In this document: in pieces, positions 5,960-22,167 of the stretch | Layout of the letters: each line of letters opens with the position of its first letter | Numbering within the stretch: position 1 is the first letter of the stretch | Source of the DNA: Cupriavidus pauculus | GTDB lineage: Bacteria > Pseudomonadota > Gammaproteobacteria > Burkholderiales > Burkholderiaceae | Reading direction: 5' to 3' | NCBI RefSeq assembly: GCF_008801835.1 | Contig: NZ_VZOW01000009.1 | Span: 1-64,000, forward strand | Length of the DNA: 64,000 nt | Notes under the pieces: model-generated | What the model was told of the DNA's origin: nothing | The model's input: the letters and a program-made list of their open reading frames with translations, nothing else | Database searches by the model: none | Made by a program: the position numbers and the translations under genes

Positions 5960-6937
5960 ATGCCCGGCGCCAAACATATTCCACCCGTCCTGCAAAACCT
6001 GGCCTTGCCCGTGATCGCATCGCCCATGTTTATCGTCAGCTATCCGGAGCTGGTGATGGCCCAGTGCAAGGCGGGCATCGTTGGCTCGTTCCCGGCGCTC
6101 AACGCGCGTCCGGCCGAACTGCTCGACGAATGGCTGACGATGATCCAGGAAGAGCTTGCGGCGTTCCAGGCGGCCAATCCTGGCAAGCCGGTGGGGCCGG
6201 TGGCGGTGAACCAGATCGTGCATGTGTCCAACGCTCGGCTGGAGCACGACGTGAAGGTCTGCGTGGAGCACAAGGTGCCGATCTTCATCACGTCGCTGCG
6301 CGCGCCGGTCAAGGAAATGATCGACGCAGTGCACAGCTATGGCGGCATCGTGCTGCACGACGTCATCAGCATCCGCCACGCGGAGAAGGCAATCGAGGCC
6401 GGCGTCGACGGGCTGATCCTGGTGGCGGCTGGCGCGGGCGGCCATGCCGGTACGCTGTCGCCGTTCGCGCTGGTCGGCGAAGTGCGCAAGATCTTCGATG
6501 GCCCGATCGCGCTGTCGGGCGCGATCGCCACCGGCGACGCCGTGCTGGCCGCGCAAGCCATGGGCGCCGATTTCGCTTATGTCGGCACGCGCTTCATCGC
6601 GTCGCAGGAAGGCCACGCCAGCGCCGAGTACAAGCAATCGATCACCAGTTCGGCCGCGTCGGACATCATCTACACCAACCTGTTCACGGGCGTGCACGGC
6701 AACTACATCCGCGAGAGCATTCTTAATTCGGGGCTCGATCCCGAAAACCTGCCCGTGGCGGACAAGACCAAGATGGACTTTTCCAGCGGCGCATCGAAGG
6801 CCAAGGCATGGAAGGACATCTGGGGCGCCGGCCAGGGCGTGGGCCAGATCCACGACATTCCCACCGCGGGCGAGATCGTGGCGCGCATGAAGGCCGAGTA
6901 CGATGCGGCGCGCGCCCGCCTGGGACTGGTAGCATAA
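5960..6937 (+). CDS. Nitronate monooxygenase (2-nitropropane dioxygenase family)
   Basis: An FMN-dependent TIM-barrel enzyme of 325 residues that oxidises alkyl nitronates such as propionate 3-nitronate. Family blocks include the N-terminal PVIASPMF flavin loop, GGHAG at about residue 163 and the ALSGAIATGDAVLAA segment that binds phosphate. Related members act as flavin-dependent enoyl reductases or detoxify nitro compounds, so the exact substrate is uncertain. A clear GAGGAG ribosome binding site precedes the ATG. A TetR-type operator overlaps its promoter, suggesting substrate-inducible expression. Confidence 0.87.
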   Translation: MPGAKHIPPVLQNLALPVIASPMFIVSYPELVMAQCKAGIVGSFPALNARPAELLDEWLTMIQEELAAFQAANPGKPVGPVAVNQIVHVSNARLEHDVKVCVEHKVPIFITSLRAPVKEMIDAVHSYGGIVLHDVISIRHAEKAIEAGVDGLILVAAGAGGHAGTLSPFALVGEVRKIFDGPIALSGAIATGDAVLAAQAMGADFAYVGTRFIASQEGHASAEYKQSITSSAASDIIYTNLFTGVHGNYIRESILNSGLDPENLPVADKTKMDFSSGASKAKAWKDIWGAGQGVGQIHDIPTAGEIVARMKAEYDAARARLGLVA

Positions 6938-7502: not shown

Positions 7503-8753
7503 TCAGTCGTAACGGCGCGCGTCCTCGATCACGCGGCCGTCCTGCGGCAACGATCCCGCCGCCACAAACTGCACGTCGCCGCGCAGGCGCATCACCTCCC
7601 GCATCGATTCGGCAATAGCGCGCGCCAGGCCTTCGTCGTCGCGCGTGGCGTCGCAATGCAGCGTCATGGCGTCGTTGCCGACCGCGCCCGTCACCACCAG
7701 CCGTGCGGCGCGCACTTCCGGATGACGGCGCACCACATCGGCCACCTGGCCCGGATGCACGAACATGCCCTTGACCTTGGTGGCCTGGTCCGCGCGGCCC
7801 AGCCAGCCTTTCAAACGGATGTTGGTGCGGCCGCAGGGGCTGGCCCGATGCGATGAATCGGCCACTACGGCCGACAAGTCGCCGGTGCCGAAACGGATCA
7901 GCGGATAGTCGCCATTGCCGAGCACGGTGACCACCACTTCGCCCGTTTCGCCCTCTGGCATCGGCTTGGAGCCGCCCGGCTCGACGATTTCCACGATCAC
8001 GCCTTCGTCGACCACCCAGCCGTCGCCGCCATCGGTTTCGTAGGCGATCAGGCCGAGATCGGCAGTGCCGTACATCTGCCGCGCCACGATGCCATGGTCC
8101 TGCAACCACGCACGCAGCGTGGGCGGGCAGGCTTCGCCGGATACCAGCGCCTTCGACAGGCTGCCGCACGGCGCACCCATTTCGGCGCCGCGCTCGATCA
8201 GCAGTTTCAGGAACGACGGCGTGCCCGCATAGGCCGCGGGCTGCAGGCTGGCCAGCGCCTGCACCTGCGATTCGGTCTGCCCGACGCCAGCGGGAAACAC
8301 GCAGCAGCCCAGCCGGTGCGCGCCCGACTCCATCATCATGCCGGCCGGCGTGAAGTGATACGAAAACGTGTTGTAGACCAGATCGCCAGCGCGGAACCCG
8401 GCGGCAAACATCGCGCGCGCGGTGCGCCACCAGTCCGCCGCAAAGCCGTCGGGCTCGTGGATTGGCCCGGGCGACTGAAACACATGACGCAGCGCACCGA
8501 CGCGCGTCGCATTGAGCCCGCCCAACGGCGGCGCCGCGCGCTGGCGCGCCGCCAGTTCGGACTTGCGCGTGACCGGCAGCAAGGCCAGCGCCTCACGCGA
8601 GCGGATCTCGCGCGCATCGACTTCGCACAGCACCTCGGCGAAGTACGGCGCGTGCGCCTGGGCGTGGGCGATCTGCTGCGCCAGCGCGGTCATCAACGCC
8701 GCTTCGCGCTCGGCGGGTGCGCGCGTTTCCAGGGAATCGAAGTAGTCGGCCAT
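7503..8753 (-). CDS. PaaK-like phenylacetate-CoA ligase family enzyme
   Basis: A 416-residue adenylate-forming enzyme of the phenylacetate-CoA ligase family, predicted to activate an aromatic or other carboxylic acid to its CoA thioester in the cytoplasm. Visible features are the aryl-CoA-ligase blocks YNTFSYHFTPAG and YAGTPSFLKLL, the adenylate-binding MYGTADLGLIAYE, and the C-terminal GRADQATKVKGMFVHP hinge. The glycine-rich P-loop seen in PaaK is weak (QTESQVQALAS region). It closes a transporter operon whose other end encodes a second acyl-CoA ligase. The true substrate is unknown; it is not a canonical paa cluster. Confidence 0.82.
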   Translation of the reverse strand: MADYFDSLETRAPAEREAALMTALAQQIAHAQAHAPYFAEVLCEVDAREIRSREALALLPVTRKSELAARQRAAPPLGGLNATRVGALRHVFQSPGPIHEPDGFAADWWRTARAMFAAGFRAGDLVYNTFSYHFTPAGMMMESGAHRLGCCVFPAGVGQTESQVQALASLQPAAYAGTPSFLKLLIERGAEMGAPCGSLSKALVSGEACPPTLRAWLQDHGIVARQMYGTADLGLIAYETDGGDGWVVDEGVIVEIVEPGGSKPMPEGETGEVVVTVLGNGDYPLIRFGTGDLSAVVADSSHRASPCGRTNIRLKGWLGRADQATKVKGMFVHPGQVADVVRRHPEVRAARLVVTGAVGNDAMTLHCDATRDDEGLARAIAESMREVMRLRGDVQFVAAGSLPQDGRVIEDARRYD

Positions 8754-8878
8754 GGCAGAAATTTCGTGGACGATGCTGGGACGTTATGGTGAGAGTGGCG
8801 ATGGCGCGCCGAGGTCAGCTTGCGGGCCGGCGGTGCGCGCCGGTGTGCGGCTCGGCGCGGGTCGGCTATGAGCCGCGC

Positions 8879-9694
8879 TCAGGCCAGCCAGCGCTTGCGC
8901 CGACGATAGCTCTTGACGTCGCGGAACGATTTGCGCGCGCCGCCCTCGGCGTCGTTGGCGGCCACGCCCAGATAGAACTCCTTGACGTCCTCGTTGGTGC
9001 GCAGCGATTCGGCGTCGCCATCCATGACCACGCGCCCGTTTTCGAGGATGTAGCCGTAGTCGGCGTAGCGCAGCGCCACCATCGTGTTCTGCTCCGCCAG
9101 CAGGAAGCTGACGCGCTCGCGCGTGTTCAGGTCGCGCACGATCTCGAAGATTTCCTCCACGATCTGCGGCGCCAGGCCCATCGACGGTTCGTCGAGCAGG
9201 ATCATCGACGGCTTGGCCATCATCGCCCTACCGATGGCGCACATCTGCTGTTCGCCGCCCGACGTATAGCCAGCCTGCGACTTGCGGCGCGTCTTCAGGC
9301 GCGGAAAGTACGCGTAGATCTTGTCCAGCTCATCGCGCGTATCGCCGCGCGACAGTCCGCGCGTATAGGCGCCGGTCAGCAGGTTTTCCTCGATGGTCAG
9401 ATGCGCGAAGCAATGGCGGCCTTCCATCACCTGGATCACGCCGCGCTTGACGAGGTCGTTGGGCGTGAGCTGATCGACGCGCTGGCCGCGATATTCGATC
9501 GATCCCTTGGTGACGTCGCCGCGCTCGGCGTGCAGCAGATTGGAGATCGCCTTGAGCGTGGTGGTCTTGCCCGCGCCGTTGGCGCCCAGCAACGCCACGA
9601 TGCGGCCCTCGGGCACATCGAGCGACACGCCCTTGAGCACCAGGATCACGTGGTCGTAGATGACTTCGATGTTGTTGACGGATAGCAGGGACAT
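8879..9694 (-). CDS. ABC transporter ATP-binding protein, LivF type
   Basis: A cytoplasmic ATPase subunit of a branched-chain-amino-acid-type (HAAT) importer, 271 residues. Walker A is GANGAGKTT (37-45) and Walker B is ILLDEP with catalytic Glu169. The signature is TSGGE (144-148) instead of LSGGE. A basic tail of about 20 residues (RKSFRDVKSYRRRKRW) extends the usual LivF C-terminus. It belongs with livG-, livH- and livM-like genes upstream and is separated from the binding-protein gene by a short hairpin repeat. Confidence 0.9.
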   Translation of the reverse strand: MSLLSVNNIEVIYDHVILVLKGVSLDVPEGRIVALLGANGAGKTTTLKAISNLLHAERGDVTKGSIEYRGQRVDQLTPNDLVKRGVIQVMEGRHCFAHLTIEENLLTGAYTRGLSRGDTRDELDKIYAYFPRLKTRRKSQAGYTSGGEQQMCAIGRAMMAKPSMILLDEPSMGLAPQIVEEIFEIVRDLNTRERVSFLLAEQNTMVALRYADYGYILENGRVVMDGDAESLRTNEDVKEFYLGVAANDAEGGARKSFRDVKSYRRRKRWLA

Positions 9695-9729
9695 GGCGAC
9701 GCCTCGAAATTTCCCACCGTTTGCGAGCG

Positions 9730-9753
9730 CCCTCTCCCACGCATGGGAGAGGG
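9730..9753. repeat. REP-like hairpin between binding-protein and LivF genes
   Basis: A perfect 10-bp inverted repeat, CCCTCTCCCA/TGGGAGAGGG with a 4-base loop, lies 30 bases after the binding-protein stop. There is no T tract. CTCTCCC...GGGAGAG hairpins are dispersed repeats in many Burkholderiales. Here the hairpin may protect the abundant upstream part of the operon mRNA from 3' decay. Confidence 0.6.
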
Positions 9754-9782
9754 GCGACCACTCAGCCGCGCAGCGCCGCGGC

Positions 9783-11117
9783 TCAGGACTTCATGCACGC
9801 GGGCGTGAAGCCTTTTTCCTTGGCGTACTGCGCGGCGGTGGCCTTGAACAGCGGGTGGATCAGGTTCTTGTTGCCTTCGATCCAGTCCGACACCACCACC
9901 CACTTGGTGCCGTCCCACTGCTGGATCTTCACCTTGCCCGATCCTTCGTGGTTGTCGCAGCTGGTCTTGATCTCGGGCAGCAGGCCGGTGGCGCCGAGCT
10001 GTTGCAGGCGCGCGCTGGTCAGGTTCAGGTTTTCGAACGCCCAGCGCATTTCGTCGCCGCTCATCACCTTCTTGCCGAACTTGGCCTGCGCCACGCGGAT
10101 CGCCTCGACGGTCACCACGGCCGCCGACACGCCGCGGTTATAGAGCACCGATCCCACCTTGTTCTTGTCCTGCATGTTGCCCTTGCCGGCGCCGTAGACC
10201 ACCTTCTCGATATCGGCGATCAGCGGCACGCCCTTGCCGGCCACGTTCCATGTCGCGCTCATGTAGCCCTTGGCCGCGTCGCCGGCCGGCACGGTGTCTT
10301 CCTCCGATCCCGCCCACCACGAGCCGATCATCTTGTCGCGCGGAAAGCCCACCTTCTGCGCGGCCTTCAGCGCGGTCTGATTCATCACGCCCCAGCCCCA
10401 GAAGATCACGTAGTCCGGATTTTCCTGGCGAATCTTGAGCCATTGCGCGCCCTGTTCGTTGCCCGGATGCGCCACGGGGATTTCCACCAGGTTGAACTTG
10501 CCGAGCTTCGCCTCGGCCTGCAACGCCACGATGGGCTCCTTGCCATAGGCCGAATCGTGATACAGGTAGACGATCTTCTTGCCCGCGAGCGAGCCGCCGT
10601 TCTTCGACGCCAGGAACTTGACGATGGCCGACACCTGCATCTGGTAGGTCGTCACGAGCGGGAACGCATAGGGGAACACCGAGCCGTCCACCGCGTCGGT
10701 GCGGCCGTAGCCCATCATCACCAGCGGCACCTTGTCCGCGGCGGTCTTGTCGACCAGCGCATATGAGATGCCGGTGGACATGGTGTGATACGCGGTGCCC
10801 TTGCTGGTGCTGTTCTTGGCTTTCAGCCGCTCATAGCACTCCACGCCCTTGGCGTTGTTGTATTCGGTTTCGCATTCCTCCCAGGACAGCTTCACGCCGT
10901 TGACGCCGCCGTCCTTGAGATTGACGTAGTTCAGGTAATCGACAAACCCGCCGTAGAACGACTGGCCATTGGCGCCATACGGGCCGACGCGATAGCTGGG
11001 CAACGCGACGAACTGGTCGCCGGCCTGCGCTTGCGCCGGCAGCGCGGGCGCAAGCAACGCAGCGGCGACGCTGACCACCAGGGCGACGCGCTGCATGTTG
11101 CGAAATACGGTTGTCAT
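9783..11117 (-). CDS. ABC transporter substrate-binding protein (HAAT family)
   Basis: Periplasmic solute-binding protein of the branched-chain-amino-acid-type family (type 1 periplasmic fold), 444 residues. It has a typical signal peptide with a hydrophobic core at residues 11-25 and cleavage after AQA near residue 31. Unlike plain LivK it is long and has cysteines (SWEECE, VECYERLK, KTSCDNHEG) that could form disulfides. These larger members usually bind aromatic or fatty carboxylates rather than leucine. I chose the ATG at 11117, preceded by AAGGAGA; a GTG five codons earlier is also open. Confidence 0.88.
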   Translation of the reverse strand: MTTVFRNMQRVALVVSVAAALLAPALPAQAQAGDQFVALPSYRVGPYGANGQSFYGGFVDYLNYVNLKDGGVNGVKLSWEECETEYNNAKGVECYERLKAKNSTSKGTAYHTMSTGISYALVDKTAADKVPLVMMGYGRTDAVDGSVFPYAFPLVTTYQMQVSAIVKFLASKNGGSLAGKKIVYLYHDSAYGKEPIVALQAEAKLGKFNLVEIPVAHPGNEQGAQWLKIRQENPDYVIFWGWGVMNQTALKAAQKVGFPRDKMIGSWWAGSEEDTVPAGDAAKGYMSATWNVAGKGVPLIADIEKVVYGAGKGNMQDKNKVGSVLYNRGVSAAVVTVEAIRVAQAKFGKKVMSGDEMRWAFENLNLTSARLQQLGATGLLPEIKTSCDNHEGSGKVKIQQWDGTKWVVVSDWIEGNKNLIHPLFKATAAQYAKEKGFTPACMKS

Positions 11118-11243
11118 GACAGTCTCCTTCACCTCGAACGGGCGTTGTTATGGGAACGACTCGAAAACACCACGCGGCGCGATGCACATCCGGCAAGACG
11201 ATTCCGGCCGCGCAGCAATGCCGGAACCATGCCGACCGCACCG

Positions 11244-12320
11244 CTAATGCGGGAACGGCCAGAGCCGCAGCTTTTCCTTGGCGATCTGCCAGAGCCGCGC
11301 CAGGCCATGCGGTTCGACGATCAGAAAGAAGATGATCAAACCGCCAAACGTCATCAGCTGGATATGCGAGACGGTGGCGTTGGTGAACGGCAGGTGCAGC
11401 AACGCCGCCAGCGCGGGCAGCACGTTGTCGAGCAGGATCGGCAACAGCAGGATGAACCCGGCGCCCAGGAACGACCCGAGCACGCTGCCGACGCCGCCGA
11501 TGATGATCATGAACAAGATGCGGAACGAGAGGTCGAGCGAGAAGCCGTCGGGCTCGACGGAGCCGAGATAGCAGAACGCGTACAGCGCGCCGGCCACACC
11601 GCAATAGAACGAACTCACCGCGAAGGCCAGCAGCTTGGTGCGCATCAGCGGAATGCCGATCACTTCGGCGGCCACGTCCATGTCGCGCACCGCCATCCAG
11701 GCGCGGCCCGTGGCCGAGCGCACCAGGTTCTTGGCGATCAGCGCCAGCACCACGACGATTGCCAGCACAAACAGGTACTTCTTCACCGGCGTGTCGATCG
11801 GCACGCCGAACAGATCGAGCCGCTGGGCCGTGATCACGCCCGACGAGCTGTTGTTCGACAGCCAGGGAAACTTGGTCAGCGCCCACACCACGAAAAACTG
11901 CGCTGCCAGCGTGGCCACGGCAAGATAAAAACCCTTGATGCGTAGCGACGGCAAGCCGAATGCCACCCCAACCAGCGCAGCCGTCGCGCCGGCGAGCACG
12001 AACGTCAGCAGCACCGGAATACCCTCGATGCGCAGCTGGAAGTTGTAGGCGGCATAGGCGCCGACCGCCATGAACGCAGCCGTGCCCAGCGACAGCTGCC
12101 CGGCGTATCCCGTGAGGATGTTCAGCCCCAATGCCGCGAGCGAGAAGATCAGGAATGGCGTGAGGATGGCGCTGAGCCAGTATTCGCTGCCCGTGAACGG
12201 AATCACGGCAAATGCTACGACCATCAGCAACGCAAAAAAGATGCGGTCCTGCCGGATCGGAAAGATCTGGCTATCGGCGATGTAGCTGGTCTTGAACTGG
12301 CCCGATTCGCGGTAGAGCAT
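11244..12320 (-). CDS. ABC transporter permease, LivM type
   Basis: Inner-membrane permease of the HAAT importer, 358 residues with about nine or ten hydrophobic helices. The LivM hallmarks LGLNILTGYAGQLSLGTAAFM and IIIGGVGSVLGSFLGAG are present, the latter next to the ATPase-contacting loop. The N-terminal 28 residues are hydrophilic. The ATG is preceded by CTGGAG. Its leader contains a duplicated copy of the livH 3' end. Confidence 0.9.
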   Translation of the reverse strand: MLYRESGQFKTSYIADSQIFPIRQDRIFFALLMVVAFAVIPFTGSEYWLSAILTPFLIFSLAALGLNILTGYAGQLSLGTAAFMAVGAYAAYNFQLRIEGIPVLLTFVLAGATAALVGVAFGLPSLRIKGFYLAVATLAAQFFVVWALTKFPWLSNNSSSGVITAQRLDLFGVPIDTPVKKYLFVLAIVVVLALIAKNLVRSATGRAWMAVRDMDVAAEVIGIPLMRTKLLAFAVSSFYCGVAGALYAFCYLGSVEPDGFSLDLSFRILFMIIIGGVGSVLGSFLGAGFILLLPILLDNVLPALAALLHLPFTNATVSHIQLMTFGGLIIFFLIVEPHGLARLWQIAKEKLRLWPFPH

Positions 12321-12338
12321 GAAATTCTCCAGACATCA

Positions 12339-12477
12339 GCAAAGTTAGCCTTCGCCGAAAACACATCGCCCGCTAGACGCGCGACTTGGACGGTTTTTGC
12401 CTCCGGCCGTCGCTGCGCGACTTAACTTTGCTGCGCAAAGTTAGCCTTCGCCGAAAACACATCGCCCGCTAGACGCG
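12339..12477. repeat. 43-bp direct repeat duplicating the livH terminus
   Basis: Bases 12339-12381 and 12435-12477 are identical over 43 bp, offset by 96 bp. The second copy covers the last codons and stop of livH, so the first copy, in the livM leader, is a duplicated gene end. Between them lies a perfect 9-bp hairpin (TAACTTTGC at 12423-12431 with GCAAAGTTA at 12435-12443) and a GACGG/CCGTC stem. The interval may be a tandem duplication or a remnant of a dispersed repeat. Confidence 0.85.
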
Positions 12478-13383
12478 GTCGATGTGTTTCTCCCCGAAAA
12501 GTCCCTCCGGACGTACCAGGAGGAACAGCAACGCAAACACGTAAGGGAACCAGCCCTCAATGCCGCCGAAGTTTCCGCCGAACACGGACTGGAATACGGG
12601 CGGGATGTAGATTTCGGCCAGCTTTTCCGATGCGCCGATGATCAGGCCACCGACGATGGCGCCGGGCACCGATGTGAAGCCGCCAAGGATCAGCACCGGG
12701 AGGGCCTTGAGCGCGGTCAGCGTGAGCGCGAACTGCACGCCGTTTCGCGAGCCCCACAGCATGCCGGCCACGAGCGCCACAAAACCGGCCACGCCCCACA
12801 CAATGGCCCAGATGTGCTGCAGCGGAATGCCCAGCGAGAGCGCCGCCTGGTGGTCGTCGGCCACGGCGCGTAGCGCGCGGCCTACCTTGGTGTACTGGAA
12901 GAACAGCGCCAGCACCGCCACCAGCACGGCGGCGATCAGTGCGGCGGCCAGGTCGAACTTTGACACGACGATGTTGAATTTCGTCAGGATCGATTCGATC
13001 GGCTCGTCGACGATGCCGAGCTGGATGGGACGGACCTCGTTGCCGAACAGGAGCGGCCCCAGCCCCTCCAGAAAGAACGACAGGCCGATGGTGGCCATGA
13101 ACAGCGTGATCGGCGGCTGGTTGACGAGCTTGCGCAGCACGAAACGTTCGGTGCTCATGCCGACGATGATCATGACGACGAACGCGCCGATCACCGCTGC
13201 CCACATCGGCAGCCCCTTGTCCATCAGACCGACCACCGCCAGCGCGGCGAAATACACCATCGCGCCCTGCGCAAAGTTGAAGACACCGGACGCCTTGTAG
13301 ATCAGCACAAAGCCCAGCGCCACCAGCGAATACATCAGCCCGGAGAGCAGTCCGCCGATCAGGATTTCGAAGAAGAAGGTCAT
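12469..13383 (-). CDS. ABC transporter permease, LivH type
   Basis: Inner-membrane permease partner of the LivM-like protein, 304 residues and about eight helices. The start MTFFFEILIGGLLSGLMYSL is the standard LivH N-terminus. The conserved EGLGPLLFG region and the ILGGFTSVPGAIVGGLIIG loop near the C-terminus contact the ATPase. The frame continues open far upstream, but the ATG at 13383 matches the family, and upstream sequence overlaps livG in another frame. The last codons form part of a 43-bp direct repeat. Confidence 0.92.
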   Translation of the reverse strand: MTFFFEILIGGLLSGLMYSLVALGFVLIYKASGVFNFAQGAMVYFAALAVVGLMDKGLPMWAAVIGAFVVMIIVGMSTERFVLRKLVNQPPITLFMATIGLSFFLEGLGPLLFGNEVRPIQLGIVDEPIESILTKFNIVVSKFDLAAALIAAVLVAVLALFFQYTKVGRALRAVADDHQAALSLGIPLQHIWAIVWGVAGFVALVAGMLWGSRNGVQFALTLTALKALPVLILGGFTSVPGAIVGGLIIGASEKLAEIYIPPVFQSVFGGNFGGIEGWFPYVFALLFLLVRPEGLFGEKHIDRV

Positions 13384-13412
13384 GGTGTGGTCCCGGCGCG
13401 CGGCGCGGTGCG

Positions 13413-14354
13413 TTAGTGTGAAGCGCCCAGATAGGCGCGGATCACGTCGGGATTCGACTTGACCTCGTCGGGCGTGCCGTCGCCGATTTTCCGGCCGTAG
13501 TCGAGCACCACCACACGGTCGGAAATATCCATCACAACGCCCATGTCGTGTTCGATCAGCACGATGGTGGTGCCGAACTGGTGATTGACGTCGAGGATGA
13601 AGCGGCACATGTCCTGCTTCTCCTCCACGTTCATGCCGGCCATCGGCTCGTCCAGCAGCAGCATCGAAGGTTCGGCCGCCAGCGCGCGCGCCAGCTCCAC
13701 GCGCTTCTGCAGGCCGTAGGGCAGGCGGCCCACCGGCGTCTTGCGGATCGCCTGGATTTCCAGGAAGTCGATCACTTCCTCGACCTTGCGGCGATGGCGC
13801 ACTTCCTCGGCGCGCGCCGGGCCCCACCACAGCGCGTGCGCGAACAGTCCGGTGCGGAACTGCGTGTTGCGGCCGGTCATGATGTTGTCGAGCACGCTCA
13901 TGCCCTTGAACAACGCAATGTTCTGGAACGTGCGCGCGATGCCCTGACGCGCCGCCTCGGTCGGATGCATCTGACGACGCTCCTGCCCGCGAAAGACGAT
14001 GCGGCCGTGCTGCGGGTGATAGACGCCATTGATGACGTTGAGCATCGAACTCTTGCCCGCGCCGTTCGGCCCGATGATCGCGCGGATCTCGTGCTCGCAG
14101 ACATCGAACGAGATGTCGGTCAGCGCCTTCACGCCGCCGAACGCCAGCGAGATGTTGTGCAGGTCGAGGATGACGTCGCCGCGCGTCTGCGTGCGCGCCG
14201 TGGCATCGGGCCGATGCGCGTCGCCGGTGCGCGGAATGTCTTCACGCGCGCCTTCGGCGTGACCCGGCGGCGCCAGGTTGCCGGGCGACACCATCGCGCC
14301 GGCGGCGTCTACGCGCGCCATGCCGCCCTGCCACGCTGTCTGGGTAACCGTCAT
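13413..14354 (-). CDS. ABC transporter ATP-binding protein, LivG type
   Basis: ATPase subunit of the same importer, 313 residues. Walker A is GPNGAGKSS (95-103), the signature is LPYG-QKR, Walker B is LLLDEP, and the switch His is in IEHDMG. The first ~60 residues, rich in Ala, Gly, Pro and Arg, are an extension absent from typical LivG proteins (~255 residues). The ATG at 14354 is supported by GGGAGG nine bases upstream, so the extension is likely translated. Next ATG options inside the extension lack ribosome binding sites. Confidence 0.9.
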   Translation of the reverse strand: MTVTQTAWQGGMARVDAAGAMVSPGNLAPPGHAEGAREDIPRTGDAHRPDATARTQTRGDVILDLHNISLAFGGVKALTDISFDVCEHEIRAIIGPNGAGKSSMLNVINGVYHPQHGRIVFRGQERRQMHPTEAARQGIARTFQNIALFKGMSVLDNIMTGRNTQFRTGLFAHALWWGPARAEEVRHRRKVEEVIDFLEIQAIRKTPVGRLPYGLQKRVELARALAAEPSMLLLDEPMAGMNVEEKQDMCRFILDVNHQFGTTIVLIEHDMGVVMDISDRVVVLDYGRKIGDGTPDEVKSNPDVIRAYLGASH

Positions 14355-14382
14355 GCTGATTGCCTCCCGTCCCTGTGAGCCT

Positions 14383-16347
14383 TCATGCCGCGCGCGCACC
14401 GCCAGCGGGCGGGAAGCGCTTCACGTCCACCAGCTTCAGCGTGGCCGACACGCTGCCTTCGCGGCCATCCTCGAACTTCACGCGCGTATCGATGAACTGC
14501 TCGGTGCGCCCGGCGTAGAGCGCGTCGACCAGCACGCGGTACTTCTCGGCGATAAAGCCGCGCCGCACCTTGCGTGTGCGCGTCAGTTCGTCGTCATCGG
14601 GATCCAGCTCCTTATGCAAAATCAGGAAGCGCGCGATCTGCGAGCCGGCCAGCATCGCGTCGGCGGCCAGATCGGCGTTGACCTGTTCCACGCAATCGGC
14701 AATCATCGCCGTCACTTCGGGCAGCCCGGCCAGATCGATGTATCCCGCATACGGCAGATGGCGGCGTTCGGCCCAGTTGCCCACCGCATCGAAATCGATA
14801 TTGATAAACGCGCAGACCCTATCGCGGTCGGTGCCGAAGGCCACGGCCTCCTTGATGTACGGAAAGAACTTGAGTTTGTTCTCGATGTACTTGGGCGCGA
14901 ACATCGATCCATCGGCCAGCTTGCCGACGTCCTTGGCGCGATCGATGATCTTCAGGTGACCGTCGGCGTCGATCACGCCCGCATCCCCGGTCATGAAATA
15001 GCCGTCGTCGTTGATCGCTTCGCGCGTGGCGTCGTCGCGCTTGTAGTACGCCTTGAGCAGACCAACGCCGCGCACCAGCACTTCGCCGTTGTCGGCAATG
15101 CGGATCTCCATGCCGGGCGCGGCGGGGCCTACCGAATCGAACTTGACCTGGCCATCGGGCTGCAGGCAGACGTAGGCGCAGGTTTCGGTCTGGCCATAGA
15201 ACTGCTTGAGATTGATGCCGATCGAGCGGTAGAAGCGGAACAGGTCCGGTCCGATCGCTTCGCCGGCCGTGTAGCCGACGCGGATCCGGCTCATGCCCAG
15301 CACATTGCGCAGCGGCCCGTAGATCAGCAGTTCGCCCACCGCGTAGCGCATGCGGTCGGCCCATGACACCGCGCGCCCGTCGAGGATGTCGGCGCCGCAG
15401 CGGCGCGCCACGCCCATCGCCCAACCGAATATCTTGCGCTTTGCCCAGCCCGCATCTTCCATGCGGATCATCACCTGCGTGAGCAGCCCTTCGTAGATGC
15501 GCGGCGGCGCGAAATAGTAGGTGGGGCCGATCTCGCGCAGATCGGTCATCACGGTCTCGCGCGATTCCGGACAGTTGACCGTGAAACCCGCCACCATGGC
15601 CTGCGCATAAGAGAACAGGTTGTCGCCCACCCACGCCATCGGCAGGTACGACAGCACATCGTCGTGCGGGCCCAGGCCGTCGAACTGGCAACCGTTGCGC
15701 GCGGCGCCGATCAGGCCCGCGTGGGAATGGCACACGCCTTTCGGCTTGCCTGTGGTGCCGGAGGTGTAGAGGATGATCGCGGTGTCGTCCGGCGCGCCGG
15801 CCTGTACCGCCGCGTCGAAGAAGCCCGGATTGGCGCGGTCGTATTCGCGTCCGATTTCCTGCACGCGCGCGTACGACAGCAGCGAGGGATCGTCGTAATC
15901 GCGCAGGCCGCGCGGATCCTCGTAGATCAGATGACGCACGGCGCGGCCGCGCTCTGCCAGTTGCGGCTGCACCTCCAGCAGCTTGTCGACCTGTTCCTGA
16001 TCCTCGACGATGGCGAACGCGATCTCTGCATCGTCAAGCACGTAGACCATCTCGTTGGCGATGGCGTCCTGGTAGAGCGGCACCGGTACGCCGCCCAGCG
16101 CCTGCGCGGCGGTCATCGCCCAGTACAGGCGCGGACGGTTGTCGCCCACCACGGCCAGGTTCATGCCGCGCTGAAAGCCGAGCGCTGCCAGCCCGCATGC
16201 CAGCTCGCGCACTTCGCGGGCCACCTGCGACCAGCTGTATGTCTGCCAGATGCCGAGATCCTTTTCGCGATGGGCCGGGTGATCGGGCCGCTGCGTGGCG
16301 TGCGCCAGCAGGCATCGCGGGAAGGTCGTTGCCGACGATTCCTGCAT
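14383..16347 (-). CDS. AMP-dependent long-chain acyl-CoA synthetase family protein
   Basis: A 654-residue adenylate-forming ligase of the FadD15/ACSL-like class. The P-loop YTSGTTGKPKG is at 194-204, the adenine motif FYGQTE near residue 385, and the TGDAG/DRAKD hinge in the last third. It is first in a seven-gene minus-strand operon ahead of livG, livH, livM, the binding protein, livF and a PaaK-like ligase. The arrangement implies that the imported compound is activated to a CoA ester on entry. A strong GGAGAGGAGA ribosome binding site precedes the ATG. The chain length or aromatic preference cannot be read from sequence. Confidence 0.88.
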   Translation of the reverse strand: MQESSATTFPRCLLAHATQRPDHPAHREKDLGIWQTYSWSQVAREVRELACGLAALGFQRGMNLAVVGDNRPRLYWAMTAAQALGGVPVPLYQDAIANEMVYVLDDAEIAFAIVEDQEQVDKLLEVQPQLAERGRAVRHLIYEDPRGLRDYDDPSLLSYARVQEIGREYDRANPGFFDAAVQAGAPDDTAIILYTSGTTGKPKGVCHSHAGLIGAARNGCQFDGLGPHDDVLSYLPMAWVGDNLFSYAQAMVAGFTVNCPESRETVMTDLREIGPTYYFAPPRIYEGLLTQVMIRMEDAGWAKRKIFGWAMGVARRCGADILDGRAVSWADRMRYAVGELLIYGPLRNVLGMSRIRVGYTAGEAIGPDLFRFYRSIGINLKQFYGQTETCAYVCLQPDGQVKFDSVGPAAPGMEIRIADNGEVLVRGVGLLKAYYKRDDATREAINDDGYFMTGDAGVIDADGHLKIIDRAKDVGKLADGSMFAPKYIENKLKFFPYIKEAVAFGTDRDRVCAFINIDFDAVGNWAERRHLPYAGYIDLAGLPEVTAMIADCVEQVNADLAADAMLAGSQIARFLILHKELDPDDDELTRTRKVRRGFIAEKYRVLVDALYAGRTEQFIDTRVKFEDGREGSVSATLKLVDVKRFPPAGGARAA

Positions 16348-16533
16348 TGCTGTCTCCTCTCCCCGCCGACGTAGGTGCCATGCCGGGTATCAAGCCGCAA
16401 CACCGGTCGCTATACTGGGTCGATCGCGCGACATTGCCGCACCGCATCAAGCCCGCCTTGCCTTTGTGGATGAGGATTGCTGGCAGGGGCCGGTTCCGTG
16501 TGATCGTAAGATAGCCGATGCCATCCGCCGGGG

Positions 16534-16551
16534 TTGTCGCGCCGACGACAA
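16534..16551. promoter_or_regulatory. Candidate Crp/Fnr operator
   Basis: TTGTCG-N6-CGACAA, a perfect 6-bp inverted repeat with a 6-base spacer, lies 26 bp before the Crp/Fnr-type gene. Its geometry matches Crp/Fnr sites (half-sites separated by six bases), so autoregulation or control of the divergent ligase-transporter operon is plausible. A TATACT at 16411-16416 in the same intergenic region may be a -10 element. Confidence 0.45.
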
Positions 16552-16577
16552 TTCCGGGTTAATCCCTACGGAGTGCG

Positions 16578-17258
16578 ATGCGTACCGATTCCCCGCATGA
16601 TTTCATCGACCGCTGCGCCTGGGCCGTCGACCTGAGCGCCGAGCAACGCGAGCGTGTCAAACGCGTGACCACGGTGCGCGAGTACGCCCAGGGCGACTAC
16701 GTCTGCCACAAGGGCGAACTGGCCGAACACTGGCTGGGCGTGGTCGAGGGCATCGTCAAGATCACCACCGTATCGCCGTCGGGCAAGTCGGTGACGTTCA
16801 CCGGCGTGCCGCAGGGCGGCTGGTTTGGCGAAGGCGCGGTGCTCAAGAAGGAAATCCGCAAGTACGACGTGATGGCGCTGCGCCGTTCGCGCATCGCCTT
16901 CGTGCCGCGCGAGACTTTTCAGTGGCTGCTGGATACCAGTCTGCCGTTCACGCGCTTTCTGCTGATGCAGTTCAACGAGCGGCTTGGGCAATTCATTGCG
17001 GCGGTGGAATACGAACGGCTGCTCGACATCGATTCGCGCGTGGCGCGCGCCGTGTCGTCACTGTTCAACGAGCATCTGTACCCGGGCATCGGCAAGACGC
17101 TGGAGATCTCGCAGGAAGAGATCGGACTGCTGGCGGGCATTTCCAGACAGCGCGCCAACCAGGCGCTGAAGGTGCTGGAACAGCAGGGGCTGGTGCGGGT
17201 CGACTACGGCGTGATCGAAGTGCTCGATCTGGAAGGACTGCGCCAGTACGGCGAGTAG
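16578..17258 (+). CDS. Crp/Fnr-family transcriptional regulator
   Basis: A 226-residue regulator with an N-terminal cyclic-nucleotide-binding-like beta roll (about 20-120; GDYVCHKGELAEHW), a long dimer helix and a C-terminal winged helix (ISQEEIGLLAGISRQRANQAL). There is no N-terminal cysteine cluster of FNR type, so it is not an oxygen sensor of that kind. The ligand is unknown. It is divergent from the acyl-CoA ligase/ABC transporter operon and probably controls it. CGGAG precedes the ATG. Confidence 0.88.
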   Translation: MRTDSPHDFIDRCAWAVDLSAEQRERVKRVTTVREYAQGDYVCHKGELAEHWLGVVEGIVKITTVSPSGKSVTFTGVPQGGWFGEGAVLKKEIRKYDVMALRRSRIAFVPRETFQWLLDTSLPFTRFLLMQFNERLGQFIAAVEYERLLDIDSRVARAVSSLFNEHLYPGIGKTLEISQEEIGLLAGISRQRANQALKVLEQQGLVRVDYGVIEVLDLEGLRQYGE

Positions 17259-17354: not shown

Positions 17355-18209
17355 TTACTTGCTGTACACGTACACGCCGCGTCCGGTCTTGCGGCCCAGA
17401 TAGCCCGCCGCCACCATCTCGCGCATCAGCATCGCGGGGCGATACTTCGGGTCGGCAAATTCGGTGTAGAGCACTTCCATCACGGCCAGCATCGTGTCCA
17501 GGCCAATCATGTCGGCCAGCGCCAGCGGACCGATCGGATGATTGCAGCCAAGCTTCATGCCTTCGTCGATTTCCTCGGGCGACGCCAGGCCTTCGCCCAG
17601 CACGCAGAACGCCTCGTTGATCATCGGGCACAGGATGCGGTTGACCACGAAGCCCGGGCTGTTCTTGACCGTGATCGGATACTTGCCCAGCGCCTTCGAC
17701 AACGCTTCCACATCGCCGTGCGTCGCGTCGCTGGTCTGCAGGCCGCGGATCAGTTCCACCAGCGCCATCATCGGCACCGGGTTGAAGAAGTGCATGCCGA
17801 TAAAGCGGTCCGCGCGCGAGGTAACGGCGGCCAGCTTGGTGATCGAGATCGACGAGGTGTTCGATGCGATGATCACATCCGGCCCGACGATGCCGTCGAT
17901 CTGCCGAAGGATCTTGACCTTGAGATCGTAGTTCTCGGTGGCGGCCTCGATAACGATATCGGCGCGCTTGAAATCGTCATACGAGGTGCTGCCGTGGATG
18001 CGCGACAGCGCGGCGGCTTTGTCGGCCTCGGTGGCCTTTTCCTTCTTGATCAGGCGATCCAGGCTCGATGCCACGGTGGCGATGCCCTTCTGCACTGCCG
18101 CGTCGCTGATGTCCACCATCACCACGTCGAGGCCCGCCACCGCGCATGCCTGCGCAATGCCGTTGCCCATCGTACCGGCACCCACGATGCCCACTGTCTT
18201 GATTGCCAT
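17355..18209 (-). CDS. hbd: 3-hydroxybutyryl-CoA dehydrogenase
   Basis: NAD(P)-dependent oxidation or formation of 3-hydroxyacyl-CoA, linking acetoacetyl-CoA and (S)-3-hydroxybutyryl-CoA. The 284-residue, single-function form has the dinucleotide motif VGIVGAGTMGNGIAQ (6-20) and the catalytic His140 in GMHFFNPVP. Conserved Ser and Asn positions (NTSS, NSPGFVVNR) are also present. It lies downstream of a HIT-family gene and icmF on the same strand. Together with isobutyryl-CoA mutase it would feed butyryl-CoA-derived intermediates into central metabolism. Confidence 0.92.
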   Translation of the reverse strand: MAIKTVGIVGAGTMGNGIAQACAVAGLDVVMVDISDAAVQKGIATVASSLDRLIKKEKATEADKAAALSRIHGSTSYDDFKRADIVIEAATENYDLKVKILRQIDGIVGPDVIIASNTSSISITKLAAVTSRADRFIGMHFFNPVPMMALVELIRGLQTSDATHGDVEALSKALGKYPITVKNSPGFVVNRILCPMINEAFCVLGEGLASPEEIDEGMKLGCNHPIGPLALADMIGLDTMLAVMEVLYTEFADPKYRPAMLMREMVAAGYLGRKTGRGVYVYSK

Positions 18210-18779: not shown

Positions 18780-21700
18780 TCACATATTGCGCCGATACTG
18801 CCCGCCCACCTCGAACAGCGCGTGCGTGATCTGCCCTAGCGAGCACACGCGTACCGCATCCATCAGCACCGCAAACACATTGCCGTTGTCGATTACCGCC
18901 TGGCGCAGGCGCTCGAGCATGGCTGGCGCTTCCGCCGCATGGCTGCGCTGAAATTCCGCCAGGCGGCTCAGCTGACTCTGCTTTTCGTCGTCGCTGGAAC
19001 GCGCCAGTTCCAGTGTCTGCGGCGTCGGATCGCCATGCGGATTGCGGAACGTGTTCACGCCGATGATCGGTAACGTGCCGTCGTGCTTGAGCTGTTCGTA
19101 GTAGAGCGACTCCTCCTGAATCTTGCCGCGCTGATAGCCGGTTTCCATCGCACCCAGCACGCCGCCGCGCTCGGCAATCCGCTCGAACTCCTGCAGCACC
19201 GCCTCTTCCACCAGATCGGTCAATTCCTCGATCAGGAAGCTGCCCTGGTTGGGGTTCTCGCACTTGGCCACGCCCCATTCGCGATTGATGATCAGCTGGA
19301 TCGCCAGCGCGCGTCGCACCGATTCCGCCGTGGGCGTGGTGATGGCCTCGTCGTAGGCATTGGTGTGCAGCGAATTGCAGTTGTCGTAGATGGCAATCAG
19401 CGCCTGCAGCGTGGTGCGGATATCGTTGAAGTCGATTTCCTGCGCATGCAGCGATCGGCCGGAAGTCTGGATGTGGTACTTGAGCTTCTGGCTGCGATCG
19501 TTGGCGCCGTACTTGTCGCGCAGCGTCACGGCCCAGATGCGACGCGCCACGCGGCCGAGCACGCTGTATTCGGGGTCCATGCCGTTCGAGAAAAAGAACG
19601 ACAGGTTCGGCGCGAAATCGTCGATGTGCATGCCGCGCGCCAGATACGCCTCGACGTACGTGAAGCCGTTGGCCAGCGTGAACGCGAGCTGCGAGATCGA
19701 ATTCGCGCCGGCCTCGGCGATGTGATAGCCCGAGATCGACACCGAATAGAAATTGCGCACCTGGTGATGGACGAAATATTCCTGGATGTCGCCCATCACC
19801 TTGAGCGAAAACTCGGTCGAGAAGATGCAGGTGTTCTGCCCCTGGTCTTCCTTGAGGATATCGGCCTGCACGGTGCCGCGCACGTTCTGCAGCACCCATG
19901 CGCGGATCTTGGCTTCCTCGTCGGCGGTGGGCTCACGGCCATTCTCGCTGCGGAACCGGTCAAGGTTCTGGTCGATGGCCGTATTCAGGAACATCGCCAG
20001 AATCGACGGCGCCGGGCCGTTGATCGTCATCGACACCGACGTGCTCGGGCTGGTCAGGTCGAAGCCATCGTAAAGCACCTTCATGTCGTCGAGCGTGGCG
20101 ATCGACACGCCCGAGTTGCCCACCTTGCCGTAGATGTCGGGACGCTCGTGCGGATCCTCGCCATACAGCGTGACGGAATCGAACGCGGTGGAGAGCCGCT
20201 TGGCGTCCATGCCTTCGGACACCAGCTTGAAGCGGCGATTGGTACGGAACGCATCGCCCTCGCCGGCAAACATGCGCGTCGGATCCTCGCCTTCGCGCTT
20301 GAATGCGAACACGCCGGCCGTGTACGGAAAACTGCCGGGCACGTTCTCGCGCATCAGCCATTTCAGGATCTCGCCTTCATCCTCGAAGCGCGGCAGCACC
20401 ACCTTGCGCACCTTGGTGCCGGAAAGCGTGGTCGTGATCAAGCCGGTGCGGATTTCCTTGTCGCGGATCTTCACCACGTATTCGTCGCCGCCATATGCCG
20501 CCTGCATCTGTGGCCACATCGCCAGCAGCTTGCGCTCGACGGCGCCCAGCGACGCGTCGCGCTCCGCCGCCAGCGCCTCCAGCGCGCGGCCCTCGGCGTT
20601 GCCCGCTTCGTTGGCGTCGGCGTTGCCGTGCGCCGCGGACAACATGGCGCGCGCCGCGCGCAGTTGCTGGCGTTCGCGCGCAAGCCGGCTCTGTTCCGCC
20701 ACGCGACGGTGATAGCCGCGCACCACGTCGGCCAGCTCGGCCAGATAGCGGCTGCGCGCGGGCGGCACGATCACGTTCTGCCCCGTCGAGATGCGCCCGT
20801 TCAACGCCGGCAGCACGCCGGTCCTGAGCGACAGCCCGCGTTGCGACAGCGCCTGAACCAGTCCCTGATAGAGCATTGTCACGCCGTCGTCGTTGAAGCG
20901 CGACGCCTGCGTGCCGTACACGGGCATGTCTTCAGCGCGGCTATGCCATTGCTCGCGATTGCGCTGCACCTGCTTCGCGACATCGCGCCACGCATCCTGT
21001 GCGCCCTTGCGGTCGAACTTGTTGATCGCGACGAAATCCGCAAAATCGAGCATGTCGATTTTTTCGAGCTGGCTGGCGGCGCCAAATTCGGGCGTCATCA
21101 CGTACAGCGAGAGATCGACATGCGGCACGATGGCCGCATCGCCCTGACCAATGCCCGAGGTTTCCACGATCACCAGATCGAAGCGCGCGGCCTTGCACGC
21201 GGCAATCACATCGGGCAGTGCTTGCGAGATCTCGGAACCGGCCTCGCGCGTGGCGAGCGATCGCATGAAGATGTTCGGATGATTGATCGCGTTCATGCGG
21301 ATGCGGTCGCCCAGCAGCGCGCCGCCCGACTTGCGGCGCGACGGGTCGATCGAGATCACCGCGATCGACAGCGCATCCTGCTGATCCAGGCGGAAGCGCC
21401 GGATCAATTCATCGGTCAGCGACGACTTGCCCGCGCCGCCCGTGCCGGTGATGCCGAGCACCGGCGTGGCGATGATTGCGGCCTGCGCGCGCAATTCGCT
21501 CACCATCGACGCGGCGGCCTGGCCGTTTTCGAGCGCCGTGATCAGTTGCGCCAGCGCGCGCCGGTCGCCGCCCGCCACGCCGTCGAGCGTAGTCGGCGCG
21601 TATCGCGTGAGGTCGATATCGCAACGCTGCACCATGTCGGCAATCATGCCGGCCAGTCCCATGCGCTGTCCGTCTTCGGGACTGTAGATGCGCGCCACGC

Positions 21701-22091
21701 CGTAGGCCTGCAGCTCGCGAATCTCGTCGGGCACGATCACGCCGCCGCCGCCGCCGAACACCTGGATGTGATCGCCGCCGTGTTCGCGCAGCAGATCGAT
21801 CATGTATTTGAAATATTCGACGTGCCCACCCTGGTAGCTGGAGATGGCAATGCCCTGCACGTCTTCCTGCAGCGCGGCGGTCACCACCTCGCGTACCGAG
21901 CGGTTGTGGCCGAGGTGGATCACCTCGCAGCCGTGCGACTGAAGAATGCGCCGCATGATGTTGATCGACGCATCGTGTCCGTCGAACAGCGAAGCCGCCG
22001 TGACGAAACGCACCTTGTTGGCGGGCGCGCCGCCGGGCGTGGCGCCGGGCTTGGCGGTTGCCGTCCTGCTCACATCGGAAAGATCAGTCAT
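18780..22091 (-). CDS. icmF: Fused isobutyryl-CoA mutase IcmF
   Basis: A coenzyme-B12 enzyme that interconverts isobutyryl-CoA and n-butyryl-CoA, fused to its own G-protein chaperone. The 1103-residue protein has three parts. First is an N-terminal B12-binding domain with DGHDAS, base-off ligand His39. Then comes a MeaB-like GTPase with P-loop GTGGAGKSS (216-224) and NKFDRKG. The C-terminal TIM-barrel mutase contains [16 protein letters not shown] and the YQRG...E ending. Length and order match the IcmF of Cupriavidus metallidurans. The ATG at 22091 is chosen because GTGGAG precedes it. A MerR-like operator lies in the promoter about 90 bp upstream. Confidence 0.96.
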
Positions 22092-22167
22092 TGTCTCCAC
22101 CGCTTTGTTATGTGGCTGGCTGCCGCGCGCCGGCGATTCTGACGATCGCACTGACGAGGGCCGGACG

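Follow-up and report, generated by a model that had tools for sequence, protein, structure and literature searches.

Importers of the hydrophobic amino acid uptake transporter (HAAT) family, which we take to be TC 3.A.1.4, are known from LIV-I/LS of Escherichia coli and are composed of two BPD_transp_2 permeases, two ATPases and a Peripla_BP_6 binding protein. In E. coli, fatty acids enter by a different route, the vectorial acylation carried out by FadD and FadL, in which CoA ligation drives uptake and makes it irreversible. The operon described here lies in a 64,000 nucleotide stretch of the genome of Cupriavidus pauculus (contig NZ_VZOW01000009.1, positions 1 to 64,000; hereafter the window) and encodes an ATP-binding cassette (ABC) importer of the HAAT kind, with two permeases, two ATPases and one type-I binding protein of the Peripla_BP_6 family. 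It differs from LIV-I/LS by the addition of an acyl-CoA synthetase gene, by a C-terminal tail on its LivF-type ATPase and by a Trp at the position of Glu226 of LivJ. The initial annotation had placed all five transporter genes at 7503-17258 between a FadD-like synthetase gene and a PaaK-like ligase gene, with a divergent Crp/Fnr gene, and this layout was confirmed: all of the named genes are found within these coordinates and in that order, the seven operon genes on the minus strand and the Crp/Fnr gene on the plus strand.

The explanation that we favor, and to which we give about an even chance, is that the operon encodes a HAAT importer for small branched carboxylates such as isobutyrate, isovalerate or pivalate, and that the FadD-like synthetase traps these on arrival by converting them to CoA thioesters, with the LivF tail probably acting in docking and the PaaK-like protein as a non-adenylating helper. 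The binding protein and permeases would import the small branched acid, and the FadD-like synthetase, kept near LivF by the tail, would make the CoA thioester and thereby trap the cargo; the tail would probably bring the synthetase, or a complex, to the transporter, and the PaaK-like protein may bind acyl-AMP or acyl-CoA, pass it on, or exert control over the synthetase. In the Cupriavidus studied here isobutyryl-CoA would then be converted to n-butyryl-CoA by IcmF and oxidized through 3-hydroxybutyryl-CoA dehydrogenase. Such a system would have in common with FadD/FadL that uptake is driven and made irreversible by CoA ligation, and would differ in that an ABC importer precedes the ligase and that the likely cargo is small branched acids.

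The conservation of the gene set was analyzed in a phylum-wide sample of 299 genomes and in a sample of 300 genomes of the order Burkholderiales. Orthologues of the PaaK-like protein (E <1e-100, 45-100% identity) were present in 42 genomes of the phylum-wide sample, about one in seven, and form a clear class, the next best match anywhere in that sample being at 1.8e-54; in the Burkholderiales sample 96 genomes, about one third, carried an orthologue (E 1e-90 or better). Forty of the 42 phylum-wide loci were analyzed, omitting the window's own genome and one congener. The FadD-like, LivG, LivH, LivM, LivF and PaaK-like genes occur together in 36 of these 40, and the binding protein was also detected by similarity in 28 of the 36 complete loci. 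Of the remaining four, one breaks off where its contig stops, and L156, L157 and L177 have the PaaK-like gene without a transporter; in L156 and L157 this orthologue adjoins an aminotransferase gene and a dihydroxy-acid dehydratase-like gene. All seven genes are present in 71 of 80 close named loci, the other nine being partial and on contigs of 3.5-13.5 kb, and the Crp gene was seen in 74 of the 80. Because the gene set is kept to this degree in both the phylum-wide and the close loci, the association of the genes is more than chance. The PaaK-like gene is divergent in L153, a YjbR-family gene (56 bits) lies between the LivF and PaaK-like genes at L229:10795-11163, and the genes of a Deinococcus plasmid follow one another in the order LivG-FadD-LivH-LivM-SBP-LivF-PaaK-like, SBP being the binding protein and the PaaK-like gene an AMP-binding one.

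All 87 LivF proteins from the divergent and named ligase loci end in a tail containing RRKRW, usually in the form RKSF(R/K)xxK.Y(R/K)RRKRWL, which is kept even when identity over the entire LivF falls to 53-60%. E. coli LivF stops before this region, and two of the 11 LivF-type ATPases of the window's own genome are tailed; with the other nine and the E. coli protein lacking it, the tail was ruled out as a general feature of LivF. This genome has only two FadD-like genes (E 1e-40), that of the window and a second located 3.4 kb away from the other LivF with a tail. That second pair (LivF 51% identical, FadD-like protein 39%) lies on contig C10 at 148797-154863, followed on the other strand at 161732-162940 by a distant PaaK relative (34%), and the three are probably a paralogous system. 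Among six comparison loci the tail is missing from LivF in five, all sfn-type systems; the sixth, from Pseudosulfitobacter, has a tailed LivF and a FadD-like gene but no PaaK-like gene. The Deinococcus and Polaromonas LivF proteins are also tailed. The co-occurrence of tail and ligase was counted over complete LivF open reading frames (ORFs), with a strict tail pattern and a FadD-like gene within 8 kb: both were present in 153 cases and both absent in 13, while 11 had only the tail and three only the FadD-like gene. Nine of the 11 tail-only cases have 3.8 kb or less of upstream DNA (for L287, one of these, the ligase is known), and in L071 a partial FadD-like gene stands at the contig end. The FadD-like-only cases are a tail inside a read-on ORF (L029), a variant SRRKRWL (L191) and an additional LivF (45%) at L216, where the locus's own LivF is tailed. 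The only real exception of the 14 is L184, on a plasmid of Methylibium petroleiphilum PM1, with a tail, 13 kb of upstream DNA and no FadD-like gene. At this locus an IS3-like element lies upstream of LivG where the FadD-like gene was lost, and the LivF tail and the PaaK-like gene were kept. The tail tracks the FadD-like synthetase rather than the PaaK-like protein, and on these grounds we propose it as a candidate docking arm for the synthetase. The conserved gene set, and a LivF tail that goes with the ligase, are best read as a coupling of import to CoA activation, as the initial annotation had already suggested.

The genes surrounding the operon suggest the substrate class. We looked for a set of marker proteins on either side of 46 Burkholderiales loci, which represent roughly one locus per genus, and in 40 control regions at a distance of 100-300 kb along the same contigs (24 from the order genomes and 16 from the phylum genomes). 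Leucine/isovalerate genes were found beside 11 of the 46 loci, 3-hydroxybutyryl-CoA dehydrogenase beside nine, valine/isobutyrate genes beside five and IcmF beside three, so that at least one such neighbor was present at 20 of the 46 loci and in one of the 40 control regions (Fisher p 6.5e-6). On five Burkholderiales contigs (L069, L070, L072, L073 and L075) the operon adjoins leucine genes. At L229 the operon runs on, on the same strand, into genes for MmsA, an acyl-CoA dehydrogenase, an enoyl-CoA hydratase, a 3-hydroxyisobutyryl-CoA hydrolase and a 3-hydroxyisobutyrate dehydrogenase. Four of the proteins exceed their NCBIfam cut-offs (methylmalonate-semialdehyde dehydrogenase 726 bits against 448.5, hydratase 443 against 286, hydrolase 366 against 274, 3-hydroxyisobutyrate dehydrogenase 430 against 291.6); the acyl-CoA dehydrogenase is under all equivalog cut-offs and is 63% identical to the isobutyryl-CoA dehydrogenase of Azospirillum. 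This run of genes is predicted to encode the steps from isobutyryl-CoA to propionyl-CoA. The Azospirillum copy of the operon adjoins genes for isobutyryl-CoA dehydrogenase, mmsB, isovaleryl-CoA dehydrogenase, methylcrotonyl-CoA carboxylase and HMG-CoA lyase. In Roseovarius, Xanthobacter Py2 and Diaphorobacter a copy of the operon is carried on a plasmid, and its neighbors are genes for a TetR protein, a split B12 acyl-CoA mutase and MeaB.

In the window itself, the first genes past the Crp/Fnr gene on the operon strand encode 3-hydroxybutyryl-CoA dehydrogenase and then the fused isobutyryl-CoA mutase IcmF. The statement that no beta-oxidation or ring-cleavage genes are attached was therefore correct within 7503-17258 and failed just beyond the Crp/Fnr gene, where these two genes lie; no ring-cleavage genes were seen beside the window's copy. 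The window mutase is an IcmF by its B12, G-protein and mutase domains and by its orthology to the solved enzyme of Cupriavidus metallidurans (4xc6). Two positions that are Tyr and Arg in methylmalonyl-CoA mutase are Phe and Gln in the window IcmF and Leu and Asn in the Xanthobacter mutase, so that neither of the two looks like a methylmalonyl-CoA mutase. The Xanthobacter Py2 enzyme (Xaut_5043/5044) we take to be pivalyl-CoA mutase. The neighboring mutases are either IcmF orthologues or of the split type, and they adjoin the conserved gene set without belonging to it. For IcmF, PMC10481361 gives isobutyryl- and n-butyryl-CoA as substrates, and also pivalyl- and isovaleryl-CoA.

A number of observations weigh against importer and synthetase serving small branched acids with a non-adenylating helper. 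Such a neighbor was found at only one of the 40 phylum-wide loci and at none of the nine Burkholderiales loci within that set, which brings the pooled Burkholderiales count to 20 of 55; the Aminobacter and Paracoccus copies sit amid unrelated genes. The neighbor categories and identity thresholds were fixed after a first look at the order set, and the Fisher test on the control comparison takes no account of common descent among the loci. The FadD-like protein falls in a long-chain-like group, and the A10 Lys kept in most of the PaaK-like sequences (76 of 93) leaves room for some catalysis. For the binding protein, the comparison with LivJ rests on an alignment at 14% identity, and the AlphaFold2 model has a predicted local distance difference test (pLDDT) score of 46.5, too low for a reading of fold or pocket. 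Finally, the leucine and valine genes would also be compatible with the import of amino acids.

This last point leads to the alternative that the operon is an importer of branched-chain amino acids, or branched keto acids, placed near its catabolic genes, and that the ligase serves the separate salvage of leaked branched acids. Both the HAAT architecture and the leucine and valine degradation genes in the vicinity are what would be expected of such an importer, but we consider it unlikely since all four membrane and ATPase subunits miss the NCBIfam equivalog or subfamily cut-offs of the E. coli-type amino-acid system (LivF 201 bits against 441, LivG 242 against 362, LivM 121 against 366 and LivH 95 against 379). 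Furthermore, 154 of 160 binding proteins encoded in ligase operons have Trp at the position aligned with Glu226 of E. coli LivJ, presumably the contact of the amino group, in an alignment of 14% identity and probability 93. A protein binding only leucine, isoleucine or valine, which the initial annotation had named as the case that would overturn its proposal, is made less likely by this Trp, to the extent that such an alignment allows. Loss of the Glu is not specific to the ligase operon, because in most of the sister binding proteins from sfn-associated operons the residue is Val or Ile. In addition, catabolism at L229 begins at the acyl-CoA stage, with no aminotransferase or branched-keto-acid dehydrogenase among the genes read there, and B12 acyl-CoA mutases would be out of place beside a system for amino-acid uptake. 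The sister proteins (L083, L084, L239, L241 and L242), 46-55% identical in the loci compared, belong to HAAT operons adjoining sfnG/sfnB genes (sulfone monooxygenase/sulfur acquisition); in contrast to the operon studied here these have no ligase genes and lack the LivF tail in five of the five loci with a LivF, and they may import a sulfone or other organosulfur compound.

The initial annotation counted two acyl-CoA ligases, of which the FadD-like protein, with intact motifs, stands, and the PaaK-like protein, without the ATP-binding loop of a ligase, does not. The FadD-like protein has the P-loop, A5, A7 and A10 motifs of AMP-forming acyl-CoA synthetases: its P-loop is YTSGTTGKPKG in the window, TSGTT is found in all of the 14 commonest variants (67 of 82 aligned sequences), and A5, A7 and A10 are present in the listed variants. 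Its best NCBIfam match, FadD11 at 300 bits, is under the cut-off of 950, and no equivalog cut-off was reached among its best 25 NCBIfam matches. The PaaK-like proteins were aligned with E. coli PaaK as reference (n = 93: the window, 40 phylum loci, six plasmid loci and 46 order loci). The P-loop (A3) SSGTTGKP of PaaK is replaced in these proteins by SPGPI(Y/F/H)(E/D)P, in which S94, P95 and G96 are invariant, P97 is present in 90 and I98 in 86 sequences; among 73 close sequences SPGP is found in 72, the remaining one being gapped there. Both Thr of the P-loop are gone (Pro in 90, Ile, Val or Leu in 92), the second Gly has become Tyr, Phe or His in 90, and all 93 have an acidic residue instead of the Lys (Glu 66, Asp 27). 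The A5, A7 and A8 regions are kept, and the A10 Lys position is K in 76, R in eight, L in five, I in two and V in two, with Arg in the window. In the Deinococcus homologue the P-loop is not recognizable and the A8 Asp and A10 Lys are both gone. The structure model (pLDDT 78.6) retains the PaaK fold, with 2y4o as the best Foldseek match (E 1.6e-30) and template modeling scores, normalized by query, of 0.75 to 2y27_A and 0.77 to 6hdw, the 2-hydroxyisobutyryl-CoA ligase HCL. The PaaK-like protein thus has in common with PaaK1, PaaK2 and HCL the fold and the A7 GD and A8 GR.D regions, and differs from them in its replaced P-loop, its variable A10 Lys and a score far under the PaaK cut-off (119 bits against 646 for phenylacetate-CoA ligase, TIGR02155). 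In comparisons with six Cupriavidus loci the ratio of nonsynonymous to synonymous substitution rates (dN/dS) of the PaaK-like gene was 0.11-0.29, and lower values of 0.02-0.12 were obtained for LivF, the binding protein, LivM, LivH and the FadD-like gene; a relic was ruled out since 0.11-0.29 is far from 1, though constraint is weaker than on the other operon genes. The loss of the P-loop, the further loss of motifs in Deinococcus, the retained fold and the dN/dS below 1 lead us to regard the protein as a retained PaaK-fold homologue that is probably not adenylating.

It appears improbable that the PaaK-like protein works as a ligase by means of an unusual P-loop and that the operon yields two different CoA thioesters. 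The kept A5, A7 and A8 regions, the A10 Lys of 76 sequences and the purifying selection would agree with an active enzyme, but both Thr, the second Gly and the Lys of the loop are each replaced in at least 90 of the 93 sequences, the A10 Lys is Arg in the window, and the Deinococcus homologue is without a recognizable P-loop, A8 Asp or A10 Lys. The review PMC8388817 describes the A3 loop as binding the ATP phosphates, with Ser94, Thr96 and Thr97 assisting in PaaK1, and by its motif table single substitutions in the loop reduce activity up to 2000-fold or abolish it.

There is similarly little to be expected of the version put forward in the initial annotation, in which an aromatic or long-chain fatty carboxylate is imported and activated by two ligases. 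A PaaK homologue with the fold of PaaK and a FadD-like protein are indeed present, and Pseudosulfitobacter and Polaromonas have a related FadD-like system without a PaaK-like gene, situated amid genes for acyl-CoA dehydrogenase and CoA-transferase. An aromatic substrate is nevertheless not supported, given the score of the PaaK-like protein, its lost P-loop and the absence of a ring-cleavage gene beside the window's copy, and neither is a long-chain fatty substrate, given recurrent neighbors that belong to isobutyryl-CoA and isovaleryl-CoA metabolism and indicate a branched acyl-CoA of C4-C5. Phenylacetate import was ruled out by the missed PaaK cut-off together with the loss of the P-loop.

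A more elaborate form of the branched-acid importer, which we put forward only tentatively, is an import-activation machine in which the LivF arm would keep the synthetase where the transporter opens into the cytoplasm, the P-loop-less PaaK homologue would be a second subunit taking the acyl-adenylate or governing the synthetase, and the cargo would exit as a CoA thioester. ABC transport would then be coupled to metabolism in a new way, one shared by bacteria from Proteobacteria to Deinococcus. To our knowledge, the uptake of small branched acids is usually held to need no dedicated ABC importer, and our search of the open-licence literature found no importer for isobutyrate or pivalate, no description of this operon and none of the LivF tail or of a PaaK homologue without a P-loop. 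If small branched carboxylates are indeed the substrates, the annotation as branched-chain amino acid transporter would be wrong for a family present in 42 of the 299 phylum-wide and 96 of the 300 Burkholderiales genomes, and the family would gain a testable substrate class. The tail and the P-loop-less homologue would then be two precise handles on the tying of an ABC importer to an enzyme. The result would also be of value for strains producing or degrading branched acids.

The Crp/Fnr protein scores 58 bits with the CRP model NF008732, whose cut-off is 266, and is by this measure not CRP. It would govern the divergent promoter, in whose region an imperfect inverted repeat may be an operator (Table 1). 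A scan for sigma-70-type promoters returned one site where 1.6 were expected and was thus uninformative.

Table 1. Features of the operon and of its neighborhood in the window.
Feature	Position	Strand	Evidence or remark
Nitronate-monooxygenase-like FMN protein, recurrent neighbor	5960..6937	+	Recurs in 29 of 80 close loci
PaaK-like protein, 416 aa, P-loop degenerate	7503..8753	-	AMP-binding match to profile positions 201-374 of 384 only; PDB relatives 4r1l, 2y4o, 6hdw
Codons for SPGPIHEP (residues 94-101), at site of PaaK P-loop SSGTTGKP	8451..8474	-	Alignment and DNA reading
LivF-type ATPase with C-terminal tail	8879..9694	-	ABC_tran 94.1 bits
LivF C-terminal tail ARKSFRDVKSYRRRKRWLA, candidate docking element	8882..8941	-	RRKRW comparison
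Periplasmic binding protein	9783..11132	-	Peripla_BP_6 130.9 bits; relative of PDB 4ru0, E 3.7e-132
LivM-type permease	11244..12320	-	BPD_transp_2 122 bits
LivH-type permease	12469..13383	-	BPD_transp_2 110.8 bits
LivG-type ATPase	13413..~14354	-	ABC_tran and BCA_ABC_TP_C
FadD-like AMP-forming acyl-CoA synthetase, 654 aa	14383..16347	-	Pfam AMP-binding 229 bits and AMP-binding_C_3
Imperfect inverted repeat CCGGGGTTGTCG-6-CGACAATTCCGG, possible operator, divergent promoter region	16528..16557	.	Sequence reading
Crp/Fnr-family regulator, putative, divergent	16578..17258	+	cNMP_binding and HTH_Crp_2
3-hydroxybutyryl-CoA dehydrogenase, neighbor	17355..18209	-	NF004474 497 bits (cut-off 408); orthologue of PDB 4pzc, 569 bits
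Fused isobutyryl-CoA mutase IcmF, neighbor	18780..22151	-	PDB 4xc6 2270 bits, E 0; B12-binding, MeaB and MM_CoA_mutase domains

Two starts call for comment. The binding protein likely starts at the ATG at about 11117, the first with a plausible signal peptide. The LivG ORF is open to 14399 and the start at about 14354 is our own reading; the N-terminal extension (14150-14354) is long and apparently disordered, and in the open ORF the Pfam domain begins at residue 93. One genome of 2.6 Mb (G308) has eight matches to the binding protein, an unusual expansion. On the PaaK-like side the operon is bordered by oppositely oriented genes of the DUF454 and nitronate-monooxygenase-like kinds. The latter FMN protein recurs beside the operon in 29 of the 80 close loci and also at L067, L188, L205 and L221, and the Xanthobacter Py2 operon is likewise flanked by such a gene, annotated there in two pieces.

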